Source of the DNA: Spelaeicoccus albus
Lineage (GTDB): Bacteria; Actinomycetota; Actinomycetes; Actinomycetales; Brevibacteriaceae
DNA length: 64,000 nt
NCBI RefSeq assembly: GCF_013409065.1
Contig: NZ_JACBZP010000001.1
Location: 2,986,518-3,050,517, forward strand
Direction: 5' to 3'
The position numbers were made by a program, and so were the translations under genes. The notes under the pieces were generated by a model that saw only the letters and a program-made list of their open reading frames with translations, was not told the DNA's origin and ran no database searches. Each line of letters begins with the position of its first letter. Positions within the stretch are counted from its first letter, which is position 1. Of the stretch, positions 51,127 through 64,000 are shown piece after piece.

Positions 51127-52335
51127 TTAGTCCTCCAAAACTTCAAGGCCGGGCAATTCCTTGCCCTCCAAAAATTCCAAACTCGCGCCGCCGCCCGTCG
51201 AGATGTGGCCGAACCGGTCGTCGGCGAATCCGAGGGTGCGCACGGCAGCCGCCGAGTCGCCGCCGCCGACGACGGTCAGGCTGCCGTCGCCCTTCGCCGT
51301 GACATCGGCCAGGGCCTGAGCGACTGCCTTCGTGCCCGCCGAGAACGCGTCAAATTCAAAGACGCCCATCGGACCGTTCCAAAAGACCGTGCGACCCGAT
51401 TCAATCTTCTCGGCGAAGGCCTGCGCCGATTCCGGACCGATATCCAAGCCAATGGCGTCCGAACCGGCGGCGGTGTCTTCGAGCGCTTCCACCCGGGCGG
51501 TTTCGTGCTCGGCGTCAGCCGCGAACGACGCTGCCATCTCAATGTCGGTCGGCAAGATCAGCTCGACGCCTTCGCGTTCGGCCTTGTCGAGATAGCCGCG
51601 GACGGCGTCCAGCTGGTCGCTTTCCAACAAACTCTTGCCGACGGCGTGGCCCCTCGCGGCCAGGAAGGTGAAGACCATTCCGCCGCCGATGAGCAATGCA
51701 TCGGCACGGGACAGCAAATTGTCGATCACGCCGAGTTTGTCCGACACCTTCGAGCCGCCCAGCACCACCACGTACGGTCGATCCGGGTTCTTGGTCAACG
51801 TGCTGAGCACATTGACTTCCTTTTCGACGAGCGAGCCTGCTCGGGACGGCAACAGCCGCGCAATGTCGTACACGCTCGCCTGTTTACGGTGCACCACGCC
51901 GAATCCGTCCGACACGTAGACGTCGGCAAGCTGCGCCAGCTTTTCGGCGAACGCCGAGCGCTCGGCGTCGTCCTTGGCGGTCTCACCGGGATTGAATCGC
52001 AGGTTCTCCAGGAGCACGATGTCGCCGTCGTCCAAGTCCCGGGCCGCCCGATGGGCCTCCGGGCCGACGGTGTCGCCTGCAAAAGAGACGGGCTTGCCGA
52101 TCGCGGTGCCGAGCCGAGCGGCCACCGGACGCAGCGAATACCTGTCGTCGGGCTTGCCGCCCGGCCGACCCAGGTGCGCCATCACGATGACGCGGGCGCC
52201 GGCATCGGCAAGCGCGCGCAAAGTCGGTGCGCTTGCGTCGATGCGGCCCGCGTCCGTGATGGTGTCGCCGTCCAGCGGCACGTTCAGGTCGCTGCGGACC
52301 AGGACGCGCTTTCCTGCCAGGTTCGTCGTATCCAT
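51127..52335 (-). CDS. pgk: Phosphoglycerate kinase
   Basis: 402 residues from the ATG at 52335 ([20 protein letters not shown]), seven bases after the gap stop. A nine-codon extension to 52362 would overlap gap and is less likely. Motifs: [80 protein letters not shown] and [16 protein letters not shown]. It generates ATP from 1,3-bisphosphoglycerate. Middle gene of gap-pgk-tpiA. Confidence 0.97.
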
Positions 52336-52342
52336 GAAGCCT

Positions 52343-53467
<1,125 letters not shown>

Positions 53468-53573
53468 CTATCGCGGCCGGGACGACGCGCTTGCGGCACG
53501 TGCACATTATGAGATGCGCCACGTCCGGCGGGCCATTCCGCGCACCCGTTCCCTGTGCGGCCTTGAACGCATT

Positions 53574-53607
53574 GCGGGCCCCGGAGGATCACTCCCCCGG
53601 GGCCCGC
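53574..53607. terminator. sodA terminator hairpin
   Basis: GCGGGCCCCGG (53574-53584) and CCGGGGCCCGC (53597-53607) are perfectly complementary 11-base arms with a 12-base loop, 13 bases beyond the sodA stop. It is a strong intrinsic-type stem though T-poor. Confidence 0.7.
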
Positions 53608-53620
53608 CGCGCAGATCCGA

Positions 53621-54244
53621 TCAGGAAACGATCAGGCCCTGCGTCTTGGTGCGTGCAGCCTCGAAACGCTTCGCGACGTCGTCCCACGCCACGACGTTCC
53701 AGTAGGCCTTCACATAGTCGCCCTTCACGTTCTGATACTGAAGGTAGAAGGCGTGCTCCCACATGTCGAGCATGAGCAGCGGGATGGTGGCAGTGGCCAG
53801 ATTTCCCTGGTGATCGTAAAGCTGCTCGATGATGAGGCGCTGGCCGATGCTGTCCCAGGCCAGAATGGCCCAACCGGACCCCTGGATGCCGAGCGCGGCC
53901 GCCGTGAAGTGTGCGCGGAACGCATCGAACGATCCGAAGAAGTCGTCGATTGCCGCGGCGAGTTCACCGGTCGGCTTGTCGCCGCCGTCCGGGGACTGGT
54001 TCAGCCAGAACACCGAGTGGTTGACGTGGCCGGCCAGGTTGAACGCCAGATCCTTCTGCAGCTTGTTGACGTTGCCGAGGCTGTCGTTCGCCCGCGCGCT
54101 TTCCAACTGCTCCAACGCATTGTTGGCACCTGTCACGTACGCCTGGTGGTGCTTGTCGTGGTGCAGTTCGACGATCTTGCCGGAGATATGCGGTTCAAGC
54201 GCCCCGTAATCGTACGAGAGCTCGGGCAGTGTGTATACGCTCAC
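53621..54244 (-). CDS. sodA: Superoxide dismutase (Mn/Fe type)
   Basis: 207 residues ([20 protein letters not shown]). Metal ligands are visible: His in [20 protein letters not shown], His in [20 protein letters not shown], and Asp/His in [20 protein letters not shown]. Gly-rich [16 protein letters not shown] with a Gln-like GIQGSGW and the LYDHQ segment fit the Mn or cambialistic type. It converts superoxide to peroxide. Single gene, without a signal peptide. Confidence 0.95.
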
Positions 54245-54325
54245 GAATCCTCCTTGTGGTCGGCCCGGCCGATGTGTTGACGCCGGGGTTCATTCCCCAC
54301 CTTACGCGCGAGCGGCCGGCGTGGA

Positions 54326-55309
54326 TCAGTCGGCTTCGAGCATATCCGGAGTGAGGTTTGAATCGGTGCCGCCGATGCCGAGTTCGGCAGCGCGTTTGTC
54401 GGCCATGGCCAGCAATCGGCGGATGCGGCCGGCGACGGCGTCCTTCGTCATTTGCGGATCCGCCAGCTGGCCGAGTTCTTCCAGGCTGGCCTGCTTGTTC
54501 TCCAGACGAAGTCGGCCGGCGTACTGCAGGTGCTCGGGCACGTCGTCCCCGAGGATCTCAAGGGCGCGTTCGACACGGGCGCCGGCCGCAACCGCTGCTC
54601 GGGCCGAACGGCGGAGGTTGGCGTCGTCGAAATTCGCCAGCCGGTTCGCGGTCGCGCGAACTTCCCGACGCATGCGGCGCTCTTCCCACGCCATCACCGC
54701 ATCGTGGGCGCCCATCCGGGTCAACAGGGCCGAAATGCCGTCACCGTCACGGATGACGACCCGGTCCACGCCGCGGACGTCGCGGGCCTTGGCCGGGATG
54801 TCAAGGCGACGGGCCGCCCCGACCAGCGCCAATGCTGCTTCGGGGCCGGGGCAGGTGATTTCCATGGACGAGGACCGGCCCGGCTCGGTCAGTGACCCGT
54901 GCGCTAGGAATGCTCCGCGCCAGACAGCTTCGGCGTCCGCAATGGACCCGTTGACAACGTGTGCCGGCATGCCCCGCACGGGACGGCCGCGGCCGTCCAG
55001 CAGCCCGGTTTGACGGGCCAGCGATTCGCCGTCACGCACGATGCGCACCACGTAGCGCTTACCGCGGCGCAGGCCGGACGCATTCATCACGAGGATGTCG
55101 GACCGGTGCCCGAAGACGTCGAAGATCTCCGCACGCAGTCGCCGGGCGGCCGACCCGGTGTCCAGTTCGGCTTCGATGACGATTGACCCGGAGATGATGT
55201 GCAGGCCGCCGGCAAAGCGAAGGGTCGCGGAGATCTCGGCCTTGCGGCACGAACTCTTCGTCACCTCGAGTCGGGATAACTCGTCCTTGACTTGCGCGGT
55301 AAGGGCCAT
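54326..55309 (-). CDS. whiA: DNA-binding protein WhiA
   Basis: 327 residues ([20 protein letters not shown]). The N-terminal degenerate LAGLIDADG homing-endonuclease fold includes [18 protein letters not shown] and [20 protein letters not shown]. The C-terminal helix-turn-helix has [19 protein letters not shown] and [20 protein letters not shown]-like helices near residues 285-305. In Streptomyces WhiA with WhiB controls sporulation septation; in non-sporulating Actinobacteria it links growth and division. It lies downstream of rapZ-yvcK as usual. Confidence 0.95.
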
Positions 55310-55409
55310 CTGGTTACCTGTCTGCCGGAGGGGAAATCGGGTCTATCACTATTCATGGATTATGCCCCCGCGGCGAGGTTTGACGCCACCGCACGGACGA
55401 ACTTCACTC

Positions 55410-56441
55410 TTACCACGACTCCTCGGTGAGCACGTTCGCGTCGTAACAGATATCACGGTACGCCGCAGCGAGTCGAAGTGTGTCGTGCTGGGTGCGGGTG
55501 CGTCCCGCAATGGGCCGGACGACGAGTTCGGCCCCGAACAGCTCGCGGGCGGCCCGCGCCGCATCGTCGTCGTCAACCGTGCCGGGATCGACGAGCACGT
55601 AGTCGAGGCACAGCCCCGCAGCGTGCCGCTCCAAGGCCTCCAAGTGGCCGCGGACGCTTAGCCCGTCGGTCTCCCCCGGGGCCGCCGTCAAGTTCATGGT
55701 CAGGCACTTGACGGCCGGCGATTCGATGATGCGCGCGGCAAGCTCGGGCACCAGCAGATGCGGCATGACCGACGTGTACCACGACCCCGGTCCGAGGTTG
55801 ATCAGGTCGGCGCTCTCCACCGAATCAAGAGTTTCCCTGCGCGCCGGCGGCCCGGGAGGGTCCAGCCGCAGCCGCTGGACGTCACCGGCCGTGACGGCGA
55901 GTTCGGACTGGCCGCGGACCAGGCTGAGCGATTCGGGGTCGGCCGGGTCCAGACCCGCCACATCGCCTTCGATCGTCAACGGCACCGACGACATCGGAAG
56001 CACGCGACCTTGCGCCCCGAGCAGCTTTGCCATCCAGTCGAGACCGTCGACGTGGTCGTGAAGCAACTGCCACAACGCTTCGATGAGCAGGTTGCCGACC
56101 GCATGCCCGTTCAGCGGACCTTCGGACGTGAAGCGGTGCTGGATGACGTCGCGCCAGGTGCGGCCCCATTCGTCGTCATCGCACAATGCGGCAAGCGCCA
56201 TCCGCAGGTCGCCGGGCGGCAGGCCGCCGAGTTCGCTGCGGATGCGCCCGGACGAGCCGCCGTCGTCCGCAACCGTCACGACGGCCGTCAAGTTCTCGGT
56301 GATCAGCCGGAATGCCGACAGTGACGCGTACAGTCCGTGTCCGCCGCCGAGAGCGACGACGTGCGGGCCGCCGTGATCGTCGGACGTGCCTCGCGGCAAT
56401 CCGGTGATCAGCGGCCGGGCCGGCACCCTGTTGCCCGGCAT
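55410..56441 (-). CDS. yvcK: YvcK/CofD-like gluconeogenesis factor
   Basis: 343 residues from the ATG at 56441. CofD-like Rossmann motif PHVVALGGGHGLYASLSAFR, then TAVVTVADDGGSSGRIRSEL, LPPGDLRMALAALCDDDEW, GHAVGNLLIEALW and INLGPGSWYTSVMPHLLVP. YvcK (CuvA in mycobacteria) binds UDP-sugars and supports cell wall growth on gluconeogenic carbon. The ATG shares its first base with the last base of the rapZ stop, so they are coupled. Confidence 0.95.
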   Translation of the reverse strand: MPGNRVPARPLITGLPRGTSDDHGGPHVVALGGGHGLYASLSAFRLITENLTAVVTVADDGGSSGRIRSELGGLPPGDLRMALAALCDDDEWGRTWRDVIQHRFTSEGPLNGHAVGNLLIEALWQLLHDHVDGLDWMAKLLGAQGRVLPMSSVPLTIEGDVAGLDPADPESLSLVRGQSELAVTAGDVQRLRLDPPGPPARRETLDSVESADLINLGPGSWYTSVMPHLLVPELAARIIESPAVKCLTMNLTAAPGETDGLSVRGHLEALERHAAGLCLDYVLVDPGTVDDDDAARAARELFGAELVVRPIAGRTRTQHDTLRLAAAYRDICYDANVLTEESW

Positions 56442-57325
56442 TATTCCCGCCCCAAATCACGGTGCACGGCCGACGCGGTCACGCCGGCAGAAGTCAAACG
56501 TCTGGCAAGTTCGACGGCCATGGCCACGGACCGGTGTTTGCCTCCGGTGCAGCCGATGGCGAAAGTCACGAAGTGCCTGTTCTCGCGGTCGTATCCGTCC
56601 ATCACCGGTTCGAGCGCGTACACGTAGCGGTCCAGAAAGGTCTCGGCTTCGTCGTGGCCGAGCACCCAGTCGGCGACGGGCTGGTCCGTGCCGCGCAGAT
56701 CCCGCAGCGACGGAATCCAGAACGGGTTGGGCAGAAAGCGTACGTCGATGACGTGATCGGCGTCGACCGGCAGCCCGTATTTGAAGCCGAAACTCATCAC
56801 CGTGACTCGCAGGATGCGGCCGGATTCGTTTTCCGAGAACGCTTTGATGACGGCGTCCGCAAGCTGGTGCACGTTCATCTCGGACGTGTCGATGACGATG
56901 TCGGCGACGCCGCGCACTTCGGACGTCGCATCGCGTTCGGCTTCGATGCCGTCCAGCATGCGTCCGTCGCCTTGCAACGGATGCGGCCGGCGGACCGACT
57001 CGAACCGGCGCACGAGCACGTCGTCGGCGGTGTCCAGATAGAGCACGCGGAGGGTGACGCCCTGCTCGCGCAGTTCCTTCAACGACGGCGCCAACTCGTG
57101 GTACAAGGCACGGCCGCGCACGTCGACGACCACGGCGAGCTTCGGCAGGGCCCCCTCGGCACGCCCCACGAGTTCGGCAAGCGGCCGCAGCATTTGCGGC
57201 GGCAGATTGTCGACGACGTACCAGCCCAGGTCTTCCAGGACGTTTGCCGCAGTGGTGCGGCCGGCTCCGGACATTCCGGTGACGATGAGCACTTCCGGAC
57301 CGCCCGATGCGCTCGCAGGAGTCAT
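56441..57325 (-). CDS. rapZ: RapZ family nucleotide-binding protein
   Basis: 294 residues from the ATG at 57325 ([20 protein letters not shown]), with AAGGA upstream; an ATG at 57349 is an alternative, and the much longer open frame beyond is not coding. Walker [61 protein letters not shown] and the C-terminal [20 protein letters not shown]. RapZ binds small RNA and controls amino-sugar synthesis in E. coli; in Actinobacteria its role is unclear. Normally next to uvrC, here separated by two sulfotransferase-like genes. Confidence 0.94.
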
Positions 57326-57366
57326 CTGAAGATCCTTATCTGTCGGCATACGTTCGAAAGACCAAC

Positions 57367-57797
57367 CTACCGGACGCGCCGGGTTTGTGGCATCCGCGCA
57401 TTCAGGTGGGGCACCGCGACGACCGGTACCGCAGTGCCGAGCCTTATGCACAACGGTTCCCAGCCGTCGCGGACGGACCATTCGATCAGACGCTGCTCGG
57501 CACAGTTCCGTCGGACGTCGTCCACGTGCCTTTGGTATGCCGCCATAGCGTTTTTGCGGTCGAGAAAGCCGTCCCAGCCGCCAAAATGCTCGTCCCAGAC
57601 AGCTGCGAGTCGAACTCGCGCAGTTCCGTCCGCCAGTCGACGTACTCCCCCGAACGATGCCGGTTCCACACTTCCGCGAACTCCGGTCGCCGGAAGACAT
57701 CTTGCATTTGAAAGCAGGGGCCGAAGCCGACGAGTTCCAGCGCGGCGGCAGCAGACGTCGTCCCGGTTCGCCCCCAACCCGCGCCTATTACTCGCAT
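57367..57797 (-). pseudogene. Sulfotransferase relic with internal deletion
   Basis: From the ATG at 57797 the frame reads [20 protein letters not shown] (P-loop for PAPS), [20 protein letters not shown] and [15 protein letters not shown]. Near 57595 it jumps phase to [40 protein letters not shown] and the family C-terminus [20 protein letters not shown], ending at 57367. The central part of the enzyme is missing and the frames do not match, so it is dead. It belongs to the actinobacterial sulfotransferase family with a GxGRTGT start. It lies beside a second sulfotransferase-like gene. Confidence 0.8.
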
Positions 57798-57972
57798 GGA
57801 ACCATCGTCGCACCGATCGTCGGCGATCGAATCGGATTTGTGTCCCGGTACCGGCGAACACACCTCGTTCACGTCGACGATGCTAATGGCGAAGTTGTAA
57901 TGGCCGGTGCCGTGGCTTCCCGCTCTCATCGTCACGAGACCGATCTGTTCAAGAGGGCCGGCAAGCACCATC

Positions 57973-59100
57973 CTAGCCGCGCATCTTGCGAGCGATACGG
58001 CTTTTCAAGCGCGCCCACGGCGATCTGTTCATTTGCCGCACCTGCTTTTTCAAAGCCGCGACGGTTGCCGACAACTCGTCCAGCTTCTCGTTCACGCTGC
58101 CGGTTTGGCGGTGGATCTCGGACATCTTCTTGTTGGCGGACTCGATCGCCGACGTCGTTTCCTCGGCTGTTTTCGATTGCTCAAGGCGACTGATCTCGTT
58201 GCCCAGGCTCTCGCCAATGACTGCTATCTGGCGCGGCTCGATAGTCATGGGTCCTTCGACAGGTTCGCTCGAGTCGACTCTGATCTCGCGACTGTAGCGA
58301 TGGCCCGCCGGGACGAACTCATCCACCCGGTCCATGGCGGTTTCAAGCCTATCCAGCATCACCTGCTGAATCGCCACCGGCGGATACAGCTCGTCCGGTC
58401 GGATGTCGGGCAATTCATTGCACAATTTATCGGATAACAGTCTCCCGCTCTTACCAAGCTTCCGATTGAGCACCCGCTGCAATTCGAGCTCGGTGTGCGT
58501 CATTGATCGGTTCACTGTTTCAATCGGGGGGTGTTCGAAAACCTCGGCGGGGACTTGCAGCCACTGCGCAACGCATTCCATCAGGTCGTTCTTGCACACC
58601 GAGTAATTCAAGATCGTGAGATTAACGTCCGGATTGTTGGCAAAGACTTCGAGTAGCTCGGCGGCGACGTGCGGATCGTCGTATTCGTCCCGGTACCACG
58701 ATTCCATGGACCCTGTGTTCCCATTGCGTTTGATGCTTTGCTGGTAACTGGATGCGGCGTGTTCGACGGGGTTGCGGATAAACAAGAGAATATTCGTCCT
58801 CCGTGCGCCGATATTCTCCCTCAGTTCCGCAAACTGAGCCCGAACATCCTCGTCGAGCAGCCGCCGGAACAATGTCTCTCCGCTGAGCACCATCGCTCGT
58901 TCGGCGTCCGGGCGCTGACGTGAGCGCTTTCGGAGGATCGAGCCGGCGTTACCGGCCGTGATCATCCCTTGGGACGCCAGTTCCCGGTACCGCCCTTCCG
59001 GGTATCGGAAACCGACATCGGCCAACGCTTCGGCGCTGCGTGCGAGACTGGACTGAATATAGCTCGAACCGGTCTTGCGATGACCGATATGCAAATACAA
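57973..59100 (-). CDS. Sulfotransferase-like P-loop protein with C-terminal coiled coil
   Basis: 375 residues from a TTG at 59100, the only start after an in-frame upstream stop. It opens with the PAPS-loop-like YLHIGHRKTGSSYIQSSLAR, followed by VLSGETLFRRLLDED and TNILLFIRNPVEHAASSYQQ (the 3'-phosphate binding Arg/Ser pattern). Residues from about 290 form a coiled coil (EISRLEQSKTAEETTSAIES, NEKLDELSATVAALKKQVRQ) ending in a very basic tail. Codon use is visibly lower in GC than in neighbours, suggesting transfer. The acceptor may be a cell surface glycan; that is a guess. Confidence 0.75.
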   Translation of the reverse strand: MYLHIGHRKTGSSYIQSSLARSAEALADVGFRYPEGRYRELASQGMITAGNAGSILRKRSRQRPDAERAMVLSGETLFRRLLDEDVRAQFAELRENIGARRTNILLFIRNPVEHAASSYQQSIKRNGNTGSMESWYRDEYDDPHVAAELLEVFANNPDVNLTILNYSVCKNDLMECVAQWLQVPAEVFEHPPIETVNRSMTHTELELQRVLNRKLGKSGRLLSDKLCNELPDIRPDELYPPVAIQQVMLDRLETAMDRVDEFVPAGHRYSREIRVDSSEPVEGPMTIEPRQIAVIGESLGNEISRLEQSKTAEETTSAIESANKKMSEIHRQTGSVNEKLDELSATVAALKKQVRQMNRSPWARLKSRIARKMRG

Positions 59101-59187
59101 CTCACGGGGAGAGGACTGCAGAGCAAACCACGCCTTTGTCAGATCGTCGACATTTTTTACCTAGGCAAAGTCGAGATTAGCAATAAA

Positions 59188-61074
59188 CTATTCTTCGTCG
59201 CCGGCCAGGGTCTCGGCAATTGTCTCGGCAAGTTTCGGGCCGACGCCGGACACCTCGGCCAATGCATCGACGCTTGCCGCGCGAATCTTTTTCACCGACC
59301 CGAAGTGCTTGAGCAGCGCCTTTTGCCGGGCCGCACCGAGCCCGGGGATCGCTTCGAGTTCGCTGCGGGTCATGGCCGACGCCCGGCGCGAACGGTGGTA
59401 CGTGATGGCGAACCGGTGCGCCTCGTCGCGCAGCCGCTGCAAGAGGTAGAGACCCTCGCTGGCGCGCGGCAAAATAACCGGGAACTCCTCCCCCGGCAGC
59501 CACACCTCTTCGAGCCGTTTGGCCAACCCGCACACCTGCACGTCCGTGATGCCCAGGTCGGACAGCGCCCGGACGGCGGCGGACACCTGCGGCGGGCCGC
59601 CGTCCACGACCAGGAGGTTCGGCGGGTACGCGAATTTGGCCGGGGCTTCGCTCTCCCGACCGTCGAGCGCTTCGGCTTCTGCTTCCAGGTAGCGCTGGAA
59701 TCGCCGCGACAGCACGTCGTACATGCTGGCCGTATCATCGCGTGCGGCGTCACCGCGGATGGAAAAGCGCCGGTATTCGGACTTGCGTGCCAATCCGTCC
59801 TCGAACACGACCATCGATGCGACGACGTTCGATCCGCCGGTATGGGAGATGTCGAAGCATTCGATGCGCAACAGCGCATCCGGCAGGTCCAGCGCCTCCT
59901 GGATCTCCTGCAGCGCTTGGCTGCGCGAAGTCAGATCACCGGCACGACGCGTCTTGTGCAGCACGAGCCCGTGCTCGGCGTTCTGCTTGACGGTGTCCAT
60001 GAGCGACCGTTTGTCGCCGCGGCGCGGCACCCGCACGTCAACGTGCGAGCCGCGGCGTCCGGCAAGCCACGGTGCGATCTGTTCGAGATTGGTCGGCAGA
60101 TCCGGCACCAGCACCTCGCGTGGCACCGACGACGGCTCGGCGTCGCCGTATACCTGCTGCAGCAGCTGCTCCACGAGTTCGGAGCGGTCCACGTCGTCCG
60201 TCTTCTCGACCACCCAACCGCGCTGCCCGCGAATGCGTCCGCCGCGCACGTGGAACACTTGCACCGACGCCTCCAGCTCGTCATCCGCAACGGCGAAGAT
60301 ATCGGCGTCGGTCGTATCGGGAAGCACGACTGCGCTCTTGCTCAACGCCTTGTTCAACGACGACAAGTCATCCCGCAGTTTTGCTGCCTGCTCGAAGTCG
60401 AGGGCCGCCGACGCGGCTTTCATCTTGTCCTCGAGGTCGCGCAGGAACCTGCCGGTATTGCCCGACATGAAATCCGCGAAGTTCTCGGCCATCCGGTGGT
60501 GGTCCTCGACCGAGATGCGACCGACGCACGGCGCCGCGCATTTGTCGATATACCCCAGCAGGCAGGGCCGCCCGGATTGCTGAGCCCGCTTGAACACGCC
60601 GTTCGAGCACGTGCGGATCGGGAACACGCGCAGCATCAGATCGACGGTTTCACGAATGGCCCAGATCTGCGTGTAGGGGCCGAAATATTTCGTGCCCTTC
60701 TTCTTTTTGCCGCGCATTACCTGCGCCCGCGGCACCTCGTCGCCAAGGGTGACGGCCAGGTACGGATACGATTTGTCGTCCTTGAATCGCACATTGAACC
60801 GCGGGTCGAATTCCTTGATCCACGTGTATTCGAGCTGCAACGCTTCGATCTCGCTGCCGACGACCGTCCATTCGACGCCGGCCGCCGTCATCACCATGGT
60901 GCGGGTGCGCTGATGCAGCCCGGCCGGATCGGCGAAGTACGACGTCAGCCGGGATCGCAGATTCTTGGCTTTGCCGACGTAGATCACCCGCCGGTGCGCG
61001 TCTCGGAACTTGTAGACGCCCGGCCGGGTCGGTATCTCGCCGGTCTTCGGCCGGTAAGTCTTCGGATCAGCCAC
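59188..61074 (-). CDS. uvrC: UvrABC system protein C
   Basis: 628 residues from a GTG at 61074 ([20 protein letters not shown]), overlapping the uvrA end by eight bases. GIY-YIG nuclease domain [20 protein letters not shown] at residues 15-50, a cysteine cluster [21 protein letters not shown] segment [20 protein letters not shown], RNase H-like nuclease domain ending [20 protein letters not shown] and C-terminal helix-hairpin-helix pair ([40 protein letters not shown]). It makes both incisions in nucleotide excision repair. Confidence 0.97.
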
Positions 61075-63967
61075 CGAGAACCTCGGAGAGGAACTTGCCC
61101 GTATAGCTCCCCGGCTGCGCCGCCACCTCTTCCGGGGTGCCTTGAGCGATGACGCGCCCGCCGCCGCGGCCACCTTCCGGGCCGAGGTCGATCACGAAAT
61201 CGGCGTTGGCGATGACGTCCAAGTTGTGCTCGATGATCAGCACCGTGTTGCCCTTGTCGACGAGGCCCTGCAAGACCGCCAAAAGCTTTTTGATGTCGTC
61301 GAAATGCAGGCCCGTGGTCGGCTCGTCGAGGACGTAGATCGACCGTCCCTTCGAACGTCGCTGCAATTCGGAGGCGAGCTTCACCCGCTGTGCCTCGCCC
61401 CCCGAGAGAGTTGTCGCCGGCTGACCGAGCCGCACATAGCCGAGCCCGACTTCGTTGAGCGTCGTCAAATGGCGAGCAATGCGCGGCACGGCGCCGAAGA
61501 AGTCGACTGCCTCCTCGATCGGCATGTTCAAAACGTCGGCGATGGTCTTGCCCTTGAAATGCACTTCGAGCGTCTCGCGGTTGTACCGGGCGCCGTGACA
61601 GACCTCACACGGCACGTACACATCGGGCAGGAAGTTCATTTCGATCTTCAACGTGCCGTCACCGTGGCAGGCCTCGCACCTGCCGCCTTTGACGTTGAAC
61701 GAGAACCGGCCGGGCAGGTAGCCGCGGACTTTGGCCTCCGTCGTTTCGGCGAAGAGCTTGCGGATGTGATCGAACACGCCGGTATAAGTGGCGGGGTTCG
61801 ACCGCGGCGTCCGGCCGATCGGGCTCTGGTCGACATGGACGACCTTGTCGAGCTTGTCGACGCCCGAGATGGTTTTATGCCTGCCGGGCACGTGCGAGGC
61901 ACGGTTGAGTTGATTGGCCAGCGACATGTAGAGGATGTCGTTGACCAGCGTCGACTTACCGGACCCCGACACCCCGGTGACGGCGCACATGACGCCGAGG
62001 GGGAATTCGACAGTGATGTCCTGCAGGTTGTTCTCCCGCGCGCCGATCACCGTGACGGTCTGAGCCGGGTCGACCGGGCGGCGCACCGCCGGGATCTCGA
62101 TGCGTTCTCGCCGGTCCAGATAGGCACCGGTGATTGATTCGTCGGCCGTGAGCAGTCCGTCGACCGGGCCGGAATACACCACCTTGCCGCCGTGCTCGCC
62201 CGCGCCGGGCCCGATGTCGACGACCCAATCGGAGGTGCGGATCGTGTCTTCGTCATGCTCGACGACTATCAGCGTATTGCCGAGATCGCGCAGGCGCGTG
62301 AGAGTTTCGATGAGTCGATGATTGTCGCGTTGATGCAGGCCGATCGACGGTTCGTCGAGCACGTACAGGACGCCGACGAGTCCCGACCCGATCTGCGTGG
62401 CCAGCCGGATGCGTTGTGCCTCGCCGCCGGAGAGCGAACCCGACGGTCGGTCCAGCGAGAGGTAGTCCAATCCGACGTCCAGCAGGAAGCCCAGCCGCGC
62501 GTTGATCTCCTTCATGACCTGCGCGGCGATGGTGGCCTGGCGTTTGGAGAGCGTCAGATTTGCCAGGAATTCGGCAGATTCGTCGATCGGCAAGGCGCAC
62601 ACTTCGGCAATCGACTTGCCGCCCAGCAGCACGGCAAGGGTTTCCGGCTTGAGCCTGGTGCCGCGGCACACGGGGCAAGCGACCTGCCGCATGTAGCCCT
62701 CGTAGCGTTCGCGGGCATAGTCCGATTCTGTTTCGCCGTGCTTGCGGTGCACGTACGACACGACGCCTTCGAACCCCGTCGTATAGGCGCGTTCGCGGCC
62801 GAACCTGTTCCGGTACCGCACGTGCACCTGATAGTCCTTGCCGTTCAAGATGGCCGCGCGGGCCGAGGCCTTGAGCTTCTTCCACGGCGTGTCGATGGAG
62901 AACCCGATGTCGTTCGCCAGTGCTTCGACGAGCCTGTTGAAGTATTTTGCGGTACCCGGGCCTATCGACCAGGGCACAATGGCGCCCTCGCTGATACTCA
63001 GATCGGTGTTCGGCACGAGCAGATCCTCGTCGACCTCGAGCCGGGTGCCGATGCCGCTGCACTCGGGACAGGCGCCGAACGGCGAGTTGAACGAAAACGT
63101 GCGCGGCTCGATCTCGTCGAGACTCAGCGGGTGTTCGTTTGGGCACGCCAGATGTTCGGAGTACCGGCGGGTGCGCTCCGGCGAATCCGCCGGCGCATCG
63201 ACGAAATCGGCAAGGGCAAGGCCGCCGGCCAGGCCCAGGGTGGTCTCGACCGAGTCGGTCACGCGTTGACGTGCCGACGGTTTCACGACGAGCCGGTCGA
63301 CCACGACGCTGATGGTGTGCTTGACCTGCTTTTCCAGCTTCGGCGGATCGTTCAAGGTGATCTGCTCACCATCGACGATGGCGCGCGCGTACCCCTTCGA
63401 CTGCAGCTCGGCGAACAAGTCGACGAACTCGCCCTTGCGGCCGCGGACGACCGGCGCAAGCAGTTGGAACCTGCTGCCCTCTTCCAGATCGAGCAACTGG
63501 TCGACGATTTGTTGCGGACTCTGCCGGGCGATTTCCTCGCCGCAGACCGGGCAGTGCGGGATGCCGGCACGCGCCCACAGCAGGCGCAGATAGTCGTACA
63601 CTTCGGTAATGGTGCCGACCGTCGACCGCGGGTTACGGCTCGTTGATTTCTGATCGATCGAGACGGCCGGCGACAGGCCTTCGATGAAGTCGACGTCGGG
63701 CTTGTCCATCTGACCGAGGAACTGCCGGGCGTAGGCCGACAGCGATTCGACGTACCGCCGCTGCCCCTCGGCGAAGATGGTGTCGAAAGCGAGCGATGAT
63801 TTGCCCGATCCGGACAGGCCGGTGAACACCACCATCGAATCGCGCGGGATATCGATGTCGACGCCGCGCAGATTGTGTTCGCGGGCGCCGCGCACGCTGA
63901 GCGAATCGGTCAGCGAGCCGGCTTTGGACGGAGTCGTACGGGACTTTTCGGACTTCACTGTGGTCAC
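61067..63967 (-). CDS. uvrA: UvrABC system protein A
   Basis: 966 residues, full length. First ATPase Walker [21 protein letters not shown] near residue 50, zinc module [13 protein letters not shown], signature [20 protein letters not shown], second Walker [21 protein letters not shown], second zinc finger [20 protein letters not shown] with [17 protein letters not shown], and [20 protein letters not shown]. It recognises DNA damage together with UvrB. No LexA box was seen in the 33 bases available upstream of its ATG at 63967. Confidence 0.98.
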
Positions 63968-64000
63968 GTGTCTACTCTAGATCCCGGCACCGACACCGCA

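Follow-up and report, generated by a model that had tools for sequence, protein, structure and literature searches.

What occupies the space between uvrC and rapZ in Spelaeicoccus albus, and what could it contribute to the cell? In the window, i.e., the whole 64,000-nucleotide stretch of DNA that was analysed, the order on the minus strand is uvrA, uvrC, an insertion, rapZ, yvcK and whiA, and the identities and order of uvrC, rapZ, yvcK and whiA are backed by Pfam matches on that strand. We propose, with a probability of roughly 0.6, that the insertion brings an intact gene for a PAPS-dependent carbohydrate sulfotransferase together with the wreck of an unrelated second sulfotransferase gene. 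We see in it an insertion of an already known kind, not a new system.

Table 1. Features of the uvrC-rapZ junction, in window coordinates
Feature	Position	Strand	Basis and remarks
uvrA	61067-63967	minus	Identity from reading the ORF alone
uvrC, upstream flank of the insertion	59188..61173	minus	Pfam; stop at 59188; 61173 is the ORF bound and not an assigned start
Intact ORF with predicted sulfotransferase fold, 375 aa	57973..59100	minus	TTG start at 59100, stop at 57973; long C-terminal helices, last helix basic
Predicted P-loop (5'-phosphosulfate-binding motif) HIGHRKTGSS, residues 4-13	59062..59091	minus	Family alignment
Predicted 3'-phosphate-binding motif RNPVEHAASSYQQ, residues 109-121	58738..58776	minus	Alignment and weak profile match to 3rnl, heparan-sulfate 3-O-sulfotransferase 3A1
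C-terminal helical tail, residues 289-375	57976..58236	minus	Model: long helices 289-332 and 337-358, basic last helix 361-374
Stretch between intact ORF and pseudogene ATG, 175 nt	57798-57972	minus	No recognised gene
PF17784 (Sulfotransfer_4) pseudogene, N-terminal piece	57612..57797	minus	ATG at 57797; model positions 1-81, 42.3 bits
PF17784 pseudogene, C-terminal piece	57373..57618	minus	Other frame; model positions 140-212, 61.0 bits
rapZ, downstream flank of the insertion	56441..57349	minus	Pfam; ATG at 57349 or 57325

To place the junction in context, the distance between the uvrC and rapZ matches was surveyed in 58 relatives, comprising 36 genomes of the same family and 22 from elsewhere in the order. 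The distance is 1862 nt in S. albus versus a median of 120 nt and a maximum of 470 nt in the family, where all 36 genomes remain at or below 470 nt. The largest family gap (genome G003) results from a longer uvrC C-terminus, and the ORF-to-ORF spacing there is 77 nt. The uvrC of this genome, which has the top rapZ identity among the relatives, ends at the junction in a long repetitive C-terminal extension, with NDAIDPNDTANPAETAGPN-like repeats recognised by eye (L006, 2520-2840). Among the other order members, the gap is at most 425 nt in 20 of 22, and the remaining two carry different insertions (G054 and G055; loci L154 and L155). The first, of 6760 nt, contains a PRD/CAT antiterminator, a glycosyl hydrolase 1 gene and a PurT-like ORF; the second, of 1196 nt, contains a shikimate-dehydrogenase-like gene. 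These two different insertions indicate that the uvrC-rapZ junction tolerates insertion. With one genome standing for the genus in the searched sets, the junction was compared at the family level. The insertion of ~1.75 kb is lineage-specific and absent from the 36 same-family genomes; the junction is indeed split here, as had been claimed in the preliminary description, and in none of those 36 genomes is it split or occupied by the same pair of genes.

The local drop in GC content that had been described was also confirmed, with 500-base segments ranging from 55.8 to 61.8% over positions 57500-59499 versus 62.0-70.8% across the remainder of 52000-64000. The intact ORF itself has 57.8% GC, at the 12th percentile of 166 reference ORFs, an uncurated set taken greedily by length. 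Signs of a mobile element were looked for: the window contains no tRNA, repeats within 56800-59700 are short and imperfect, and phage records gave no match to the ORF at E 0.01. Promoter-like sites (1 vs 0.9 in shuffles) and terminator-like sites (3 vs 3.8) were not above shuffled sequence.

The insertion had been described as one dead sulfotransferase gene and one intact P-loop protein, and this description holds: the 375-codon frame is open, and the two PF17784 pieces are out of frame with each other. The second gene is a broken member of the PF17784 family, unrelated to the intact sulfotransferase. Both pieces score above the family cut-off of 22.8, and the full 215-position domain is not found in a single frame. 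We compared the pieces with three intact PF17784 homologues (L139, L143 and L145). The unaligned part comprises residues 57-127 of L145, 61-135 of L139 and 42-104 of L143, for which 14, 50 and 14 nt, respectively, remain between the pieces; homologue alignments and Pfam coordinates together give a net loss of ~58-78 middle codons accompanied by a frame change. By eye, the lost middle includes, in another intact homologue (L133), the VRDP-type 3'-phosphate motif. The pieces are the sole PF17784 matches in their own genome, and none occur beyond it among 59 relatives.

The intact ORF is barely recognised by existing models. No Pfam model reaches its cut-off for the 375-aa protein, the best sulfotransferase model being PF00685 Sulfotransfer_1 with 12.9 bits vs 22, and NCBIfam matches are weak, well short of their cut-offs and confined to the C-terminal helical part. 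Searched as a single sequence against solved structures, the protein matches just prefoldins and Rab-3A-interacting protein, via the C-terminal part. Pfam sulfotransferase models match few of its relatives at E <= 0.01, with 5 of 49 for PF00685 and 3 of 49 for another model. The AlphaFold2 model, built from 49 aligned sequences, is confident (mean pLDDT 91.3, pTM 0.83) and predicts over residues 1-272 a sulfotransferase alpha/beta fold with a P-loop, as in the PAPS-dependent superfamily. Structural comparison with VIA-align 2 placed the heparan-sulfate 3-O-sulfotransferase 1t8t_A at the top (Z 13.8, rmsd 3.5, 208 aligned residues); the best 15 rows (Z 12.7-13.8) consist of 14 heparan-sulfate enzymes and the bacterial protein 3rnl, and the remaining sulfotransferases among the rows shown have Z of 9.7-10.5. 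Foldseek also ranked sulfotransferases at the top, yet with TM values of 0.25-0.37.

Multiple-sequence alignment revealed which residues are conserved. In 49 rows, counting the S. albus protein as one, K9, T10, G11, Q16, E75, Q121, Y166, N197, R198 and E204 are identical throughout, while R109, S117 and K124 (48 rows each), S13 (47 rows) and R125 (45 rows) are near-invariant. By analogy with known enzymes, the 5'-phosphosulfate would be bound by K9-S13 and the 3'-phosphate by R109 together with S117, and E75 could serve as the catalytic base. Over the R109-S117 region the family profile aligns weakly with 3rnl (E 0.0093) and with 3-OST-3A1 (E 0.15). Both PAPS-binding motifs retain their residues and look complete, so that at motif level the predicted fold does have a putative PAPS-binding site, the point that had been in question.

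Whether the ORF is still translated is less certain. The TTG start has no evident ribosome-binding site by eye, and 16 of the 55 relatives read start three codons further upstream, where the S. albus gene has CCC; the ORF may therefore be translated poorly, or be decaying as the gene beside it has. Taken further, the start would have been lost and translation would have ceased, leaving an early pseudogene beside one that is dead already. We regard this as improbable, given that 375 codons run without a stop or frameshift, that homology extends over most of the length, that codon use is ordinary with a GC3 of 72%, that the residues common to the other 48 rows are retained and that the structure is modelled with confidence. 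Carried by one genome, the gene may still be maintained, and we keep to an intact enzyme in what follows.

Beyond the sulfotransferase domain, the protein continues into a helical tail. The hydrophobic moment of the whole protein is highest at residues 364-374 (0.79 on the Eisenberg scale), with nearly equal values at 349-359 (0.78) and 78-88 (0.77). The tail may anchor the enzyme to the membrane or within a complex, and the near-equal moments elsewhere in the protein leave membrane tethering at the level of inference. The preliminary description had regarded the coiled-coil fusion as unusual for the family. That view did not survive comparison, because long and often basic tails are common: at least 40 residues follow position 296 in 28 of the 48 other rows (29 of 49 with the S. 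albus protein), and 16 of these 28 long-tailed relatives (17 with the S. albus protein) have a net charge of at least +4 in the last 25 residues. By eye, the tails of L067, L068, L074, L075, L083, L097 and L102 resemble coiled coils, some family rows match TPR families, and an ESLGxEI stretch opens the tails of L067, L068, L075 and L102 and is shared by the S. albus protein.

Concerning the origin of the gene, the ORF is present among 59 relatives only in its own genome, besides weak matches (E 5e-4 and 9e-4), and no other actinobacterial match exceeds 42.5 bits across overlapping sets of these 59 relatives and 394 class, 396 order and 396 phylum genomes. The best non-actinobacterial relative is 35% identical over 367 columns (227 bits); relatives are mostly 26-40% identical over at least 200 residues. 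Similarity along the sulfotransferase domain and the shared invariant residues place the protein in what we call the HIGHGKTGSS family, for which no named model was found. In an 80-row tree, all 28 actinobacterial rows, including the paralogue from the same genome, lie across a 100/100 branch from the S. albus gene, which falls in a 12-row set of Pseudomonadota, Bacteroidota and one unclassified row (support 84/93); its placement inside the non-actinobacterial side is not firm, with 73/90 for a 4-row set and 84/93 for the 12-row set. A tree forced to group the gene with the actinobacteria is worse by 17.6 log units; the AU p of 0.023, from a test made once the tree was known, is modest evidence against that grouping. 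The gene was probably gained horizontally from outside the phylum, with no donor named by the tree. Recent foreign DNA, as judged by codon use, is unsupported: with GC3 at 72.3% (47th percentile) and a codon-use score at the 43rd percentile of the reference ORFs, the intact ORF does not stand out as foreign by this measure. Ordinary codon use suggests that the acquisition was not recent, and the transfer would have been old enough for codon use to adapt.

Relatives of the gene were sought more widely. A contig scan of 84,980 species gave 63 loci. Their titles assign most of them to Pseudomonadota and others to Cyanobacteriota and Bacteroidota, while Gemmatimonadota and Verrucomicrobiota have one each, the latter a short match; none of the 63 has an actinobacterial title, in a scan whose motifs were chosen from the HIGHGKTGSS family and whose set perhaps excludes the S. 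albus genome. One family member, titled as a Bordetella parapertussis MAG (L099), groups with Rhodobacteraceae and Gemmobacter rows, and its bin label looks doubtful. In viral contigs, a first scan gave no matches and a second gave one distant relative with 27% identity on a 13-kb IMG/VR contig (L130). A tblastn search of 72,556 plasmid records revealed relatives on four, from the genera Paracoccus, Marinibacterium and Gemmobacter. Three of these were read: one is neighboured by kpsM, kfoC, a Vi-type export gene and a sulfotransferase gene, the second by rfbABCD and a family 9 glycosyltransferase gene, and the third lies near a glycosyltransferase and a sulfotransferase gene. Among 123 ORFs from 23 of the closest loci, the commonest Pfam matches include glycosyl transferase 2 (6 ORFs) and sulfotransferases 3, 1 and 2 (5, 4 and 3 ORFs, which may overlap), and also methyltransferases, ABC components, epimerases and group 1 glycosyl transferases. 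In this uncontrolled tally, the glycan-gene neighbourhood of the relatives is a mild tendency.

These neighbourhoods bear on the earlier proposal that the insertion is the remnant of a surface-glycan or sulfolipid locus, in which both sulfotransferases arrived with glycosyltransferases and export genes that were later lost. Part of that proposal stands, as two sulfotransferase genes of different families do lie side by side, one of them decaying; furthermore, a gene annotated as a sulfotransferase lies near two of the three plasmid relatives read, and sulfotransferase families recur among the ORFs near other relatives. The larger locus itself finds no such backing, with nothing else of it recognised within the 1862 nt and no further glycan or sulfolipid gene recognised by Pfam among the minus-strand ORFs scanned between uvrC and rapZ. 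We consider the imported locus improbable and continue with an orphan sulfotransferase gene.

Such an enzyme would depend on functions encoded elsewhere in the chromosome. APS kinase has one match (3.8e-54) at 777.6 kb, and the cell can therefore probably synthesise PAPS. At 800-820 kb lies a glycan region that encodes glycosyltransferases, CDP-glycerol glycerophosphotransferase domains, an epimerase and a UDP-glucose dehydrogenase, together with a 356-aa sulfotransferase-like gene without a Pfam match that was recognised by 26% identity to the 375-aa protein alone. This region (L152, G000:C1:800000-819999) possibly specifies a sulfated cell-wall or capsule polymer. A second glycan region at 3730-3750 kb (L153, G000:C1:3730000-3749999), of the Wzz/Wzy/MatE type, has Wzz, Wzy_C and MatE matches and a sugar transferase gene, and a Sulfotransfer_3/1 gene lies inside it at 3738 kb. 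Either region could provide the glycan that the orphan enzyme modifies in trans. In the mechanism that we propose, the gene would be transcribed together with uvrC and rapZ, and the enzyme would transfer the sulfate of PAPS onto a surface glycan produced by these distant loci.

The predicted fold is also that of cytosolic, tyrosyl-protein and antibiotic sulfotransferases, and the same kind of enzyme might instead sulfate a lipid, a small metabolite or a protein. This seems unlikely to us, as polysaccharide sulfotransferases fill the top structural rows and polysaccharide genes occur near some relatives; the enzyme probably adds sulfate to surface sugars. Having an APS kinase, two glycan regions with one sulfotransferase or one sulfotransferase-like gene each, and the orphan as a third such enzyme, S. 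albus becomes a candidate actinobacterial producer of sulfated surface polysaccharides.

Sulfated surface polysaccharides are reported in several marine bacteria and in cyanobacteria, and one abstract describes cyanobacteria as unique among bacteria in having them. A search of titles and abstract openings gave nothing on the uvrC-rapZ junction or on the HIGHGKTGSS family. A bolder and rather doubtful extension of our reading is that the family represents an undescribed group of bacterial carbohydrate sulfotransferases, barely recognised by Pfam, resembling the heparan enzymes in structure, carrying their own helical membrane tether and spreading between phyla as solitary genes whose products decorate any host glycan. 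The weak Pfam recognition and a fold that points to polysaccharide sulfation make the family deserving of an assay.

Among known systems, the pseudogene resembles PF17784 in its N- and C-terminal parts, which score past the family cut-off, and departs from it in the deleted middle and the changed frame. The 375-aa protein shares with the heparan-sulfate 3-O-sulfotransferase and NDST domains (1t8t, 8ccy, 1nst) the predicted fold of residues 1-272 (Z 13.8-13.4, rmsd 3.3-3.5 Å), and its 3'-phosphate motif aligns weakly with 3-OST-3A1, as mentioned above; in contrast, it is ~13% identical to the human enzymes and has extra C-terminal helices. The likeness is one of fold. Actinobacterial sulfotransferase-like proteins of the HVGxHKTGTT type, including the copy at 810 kb in the same genome (L004), share the P-loop and general layout; however, they fall on the opposite side of the 100/100 branch and reach at most 68.6 bits in blastp, versus 227 for the best non-actinobacterial relative. 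The closest likeness is to the HIGHGKTGSS family, e.g., LA6_006207 on pLA6_007, KM031_RS22355 of Gemmobacter fulvus, and the Lutibaculum (L069) and Bacteroidetes (L067) members, which have the P-loop, the 3'-phosphate motif, the NRS..E motif, a similar length and a variable, often long tail. These relatives are not actinobacterial by title, and the three plasmid-borne ones that were read lie near glycan genes, whereas the S. albus gene sits by itself between uvrC and rapZ in an actinobacterial genome.
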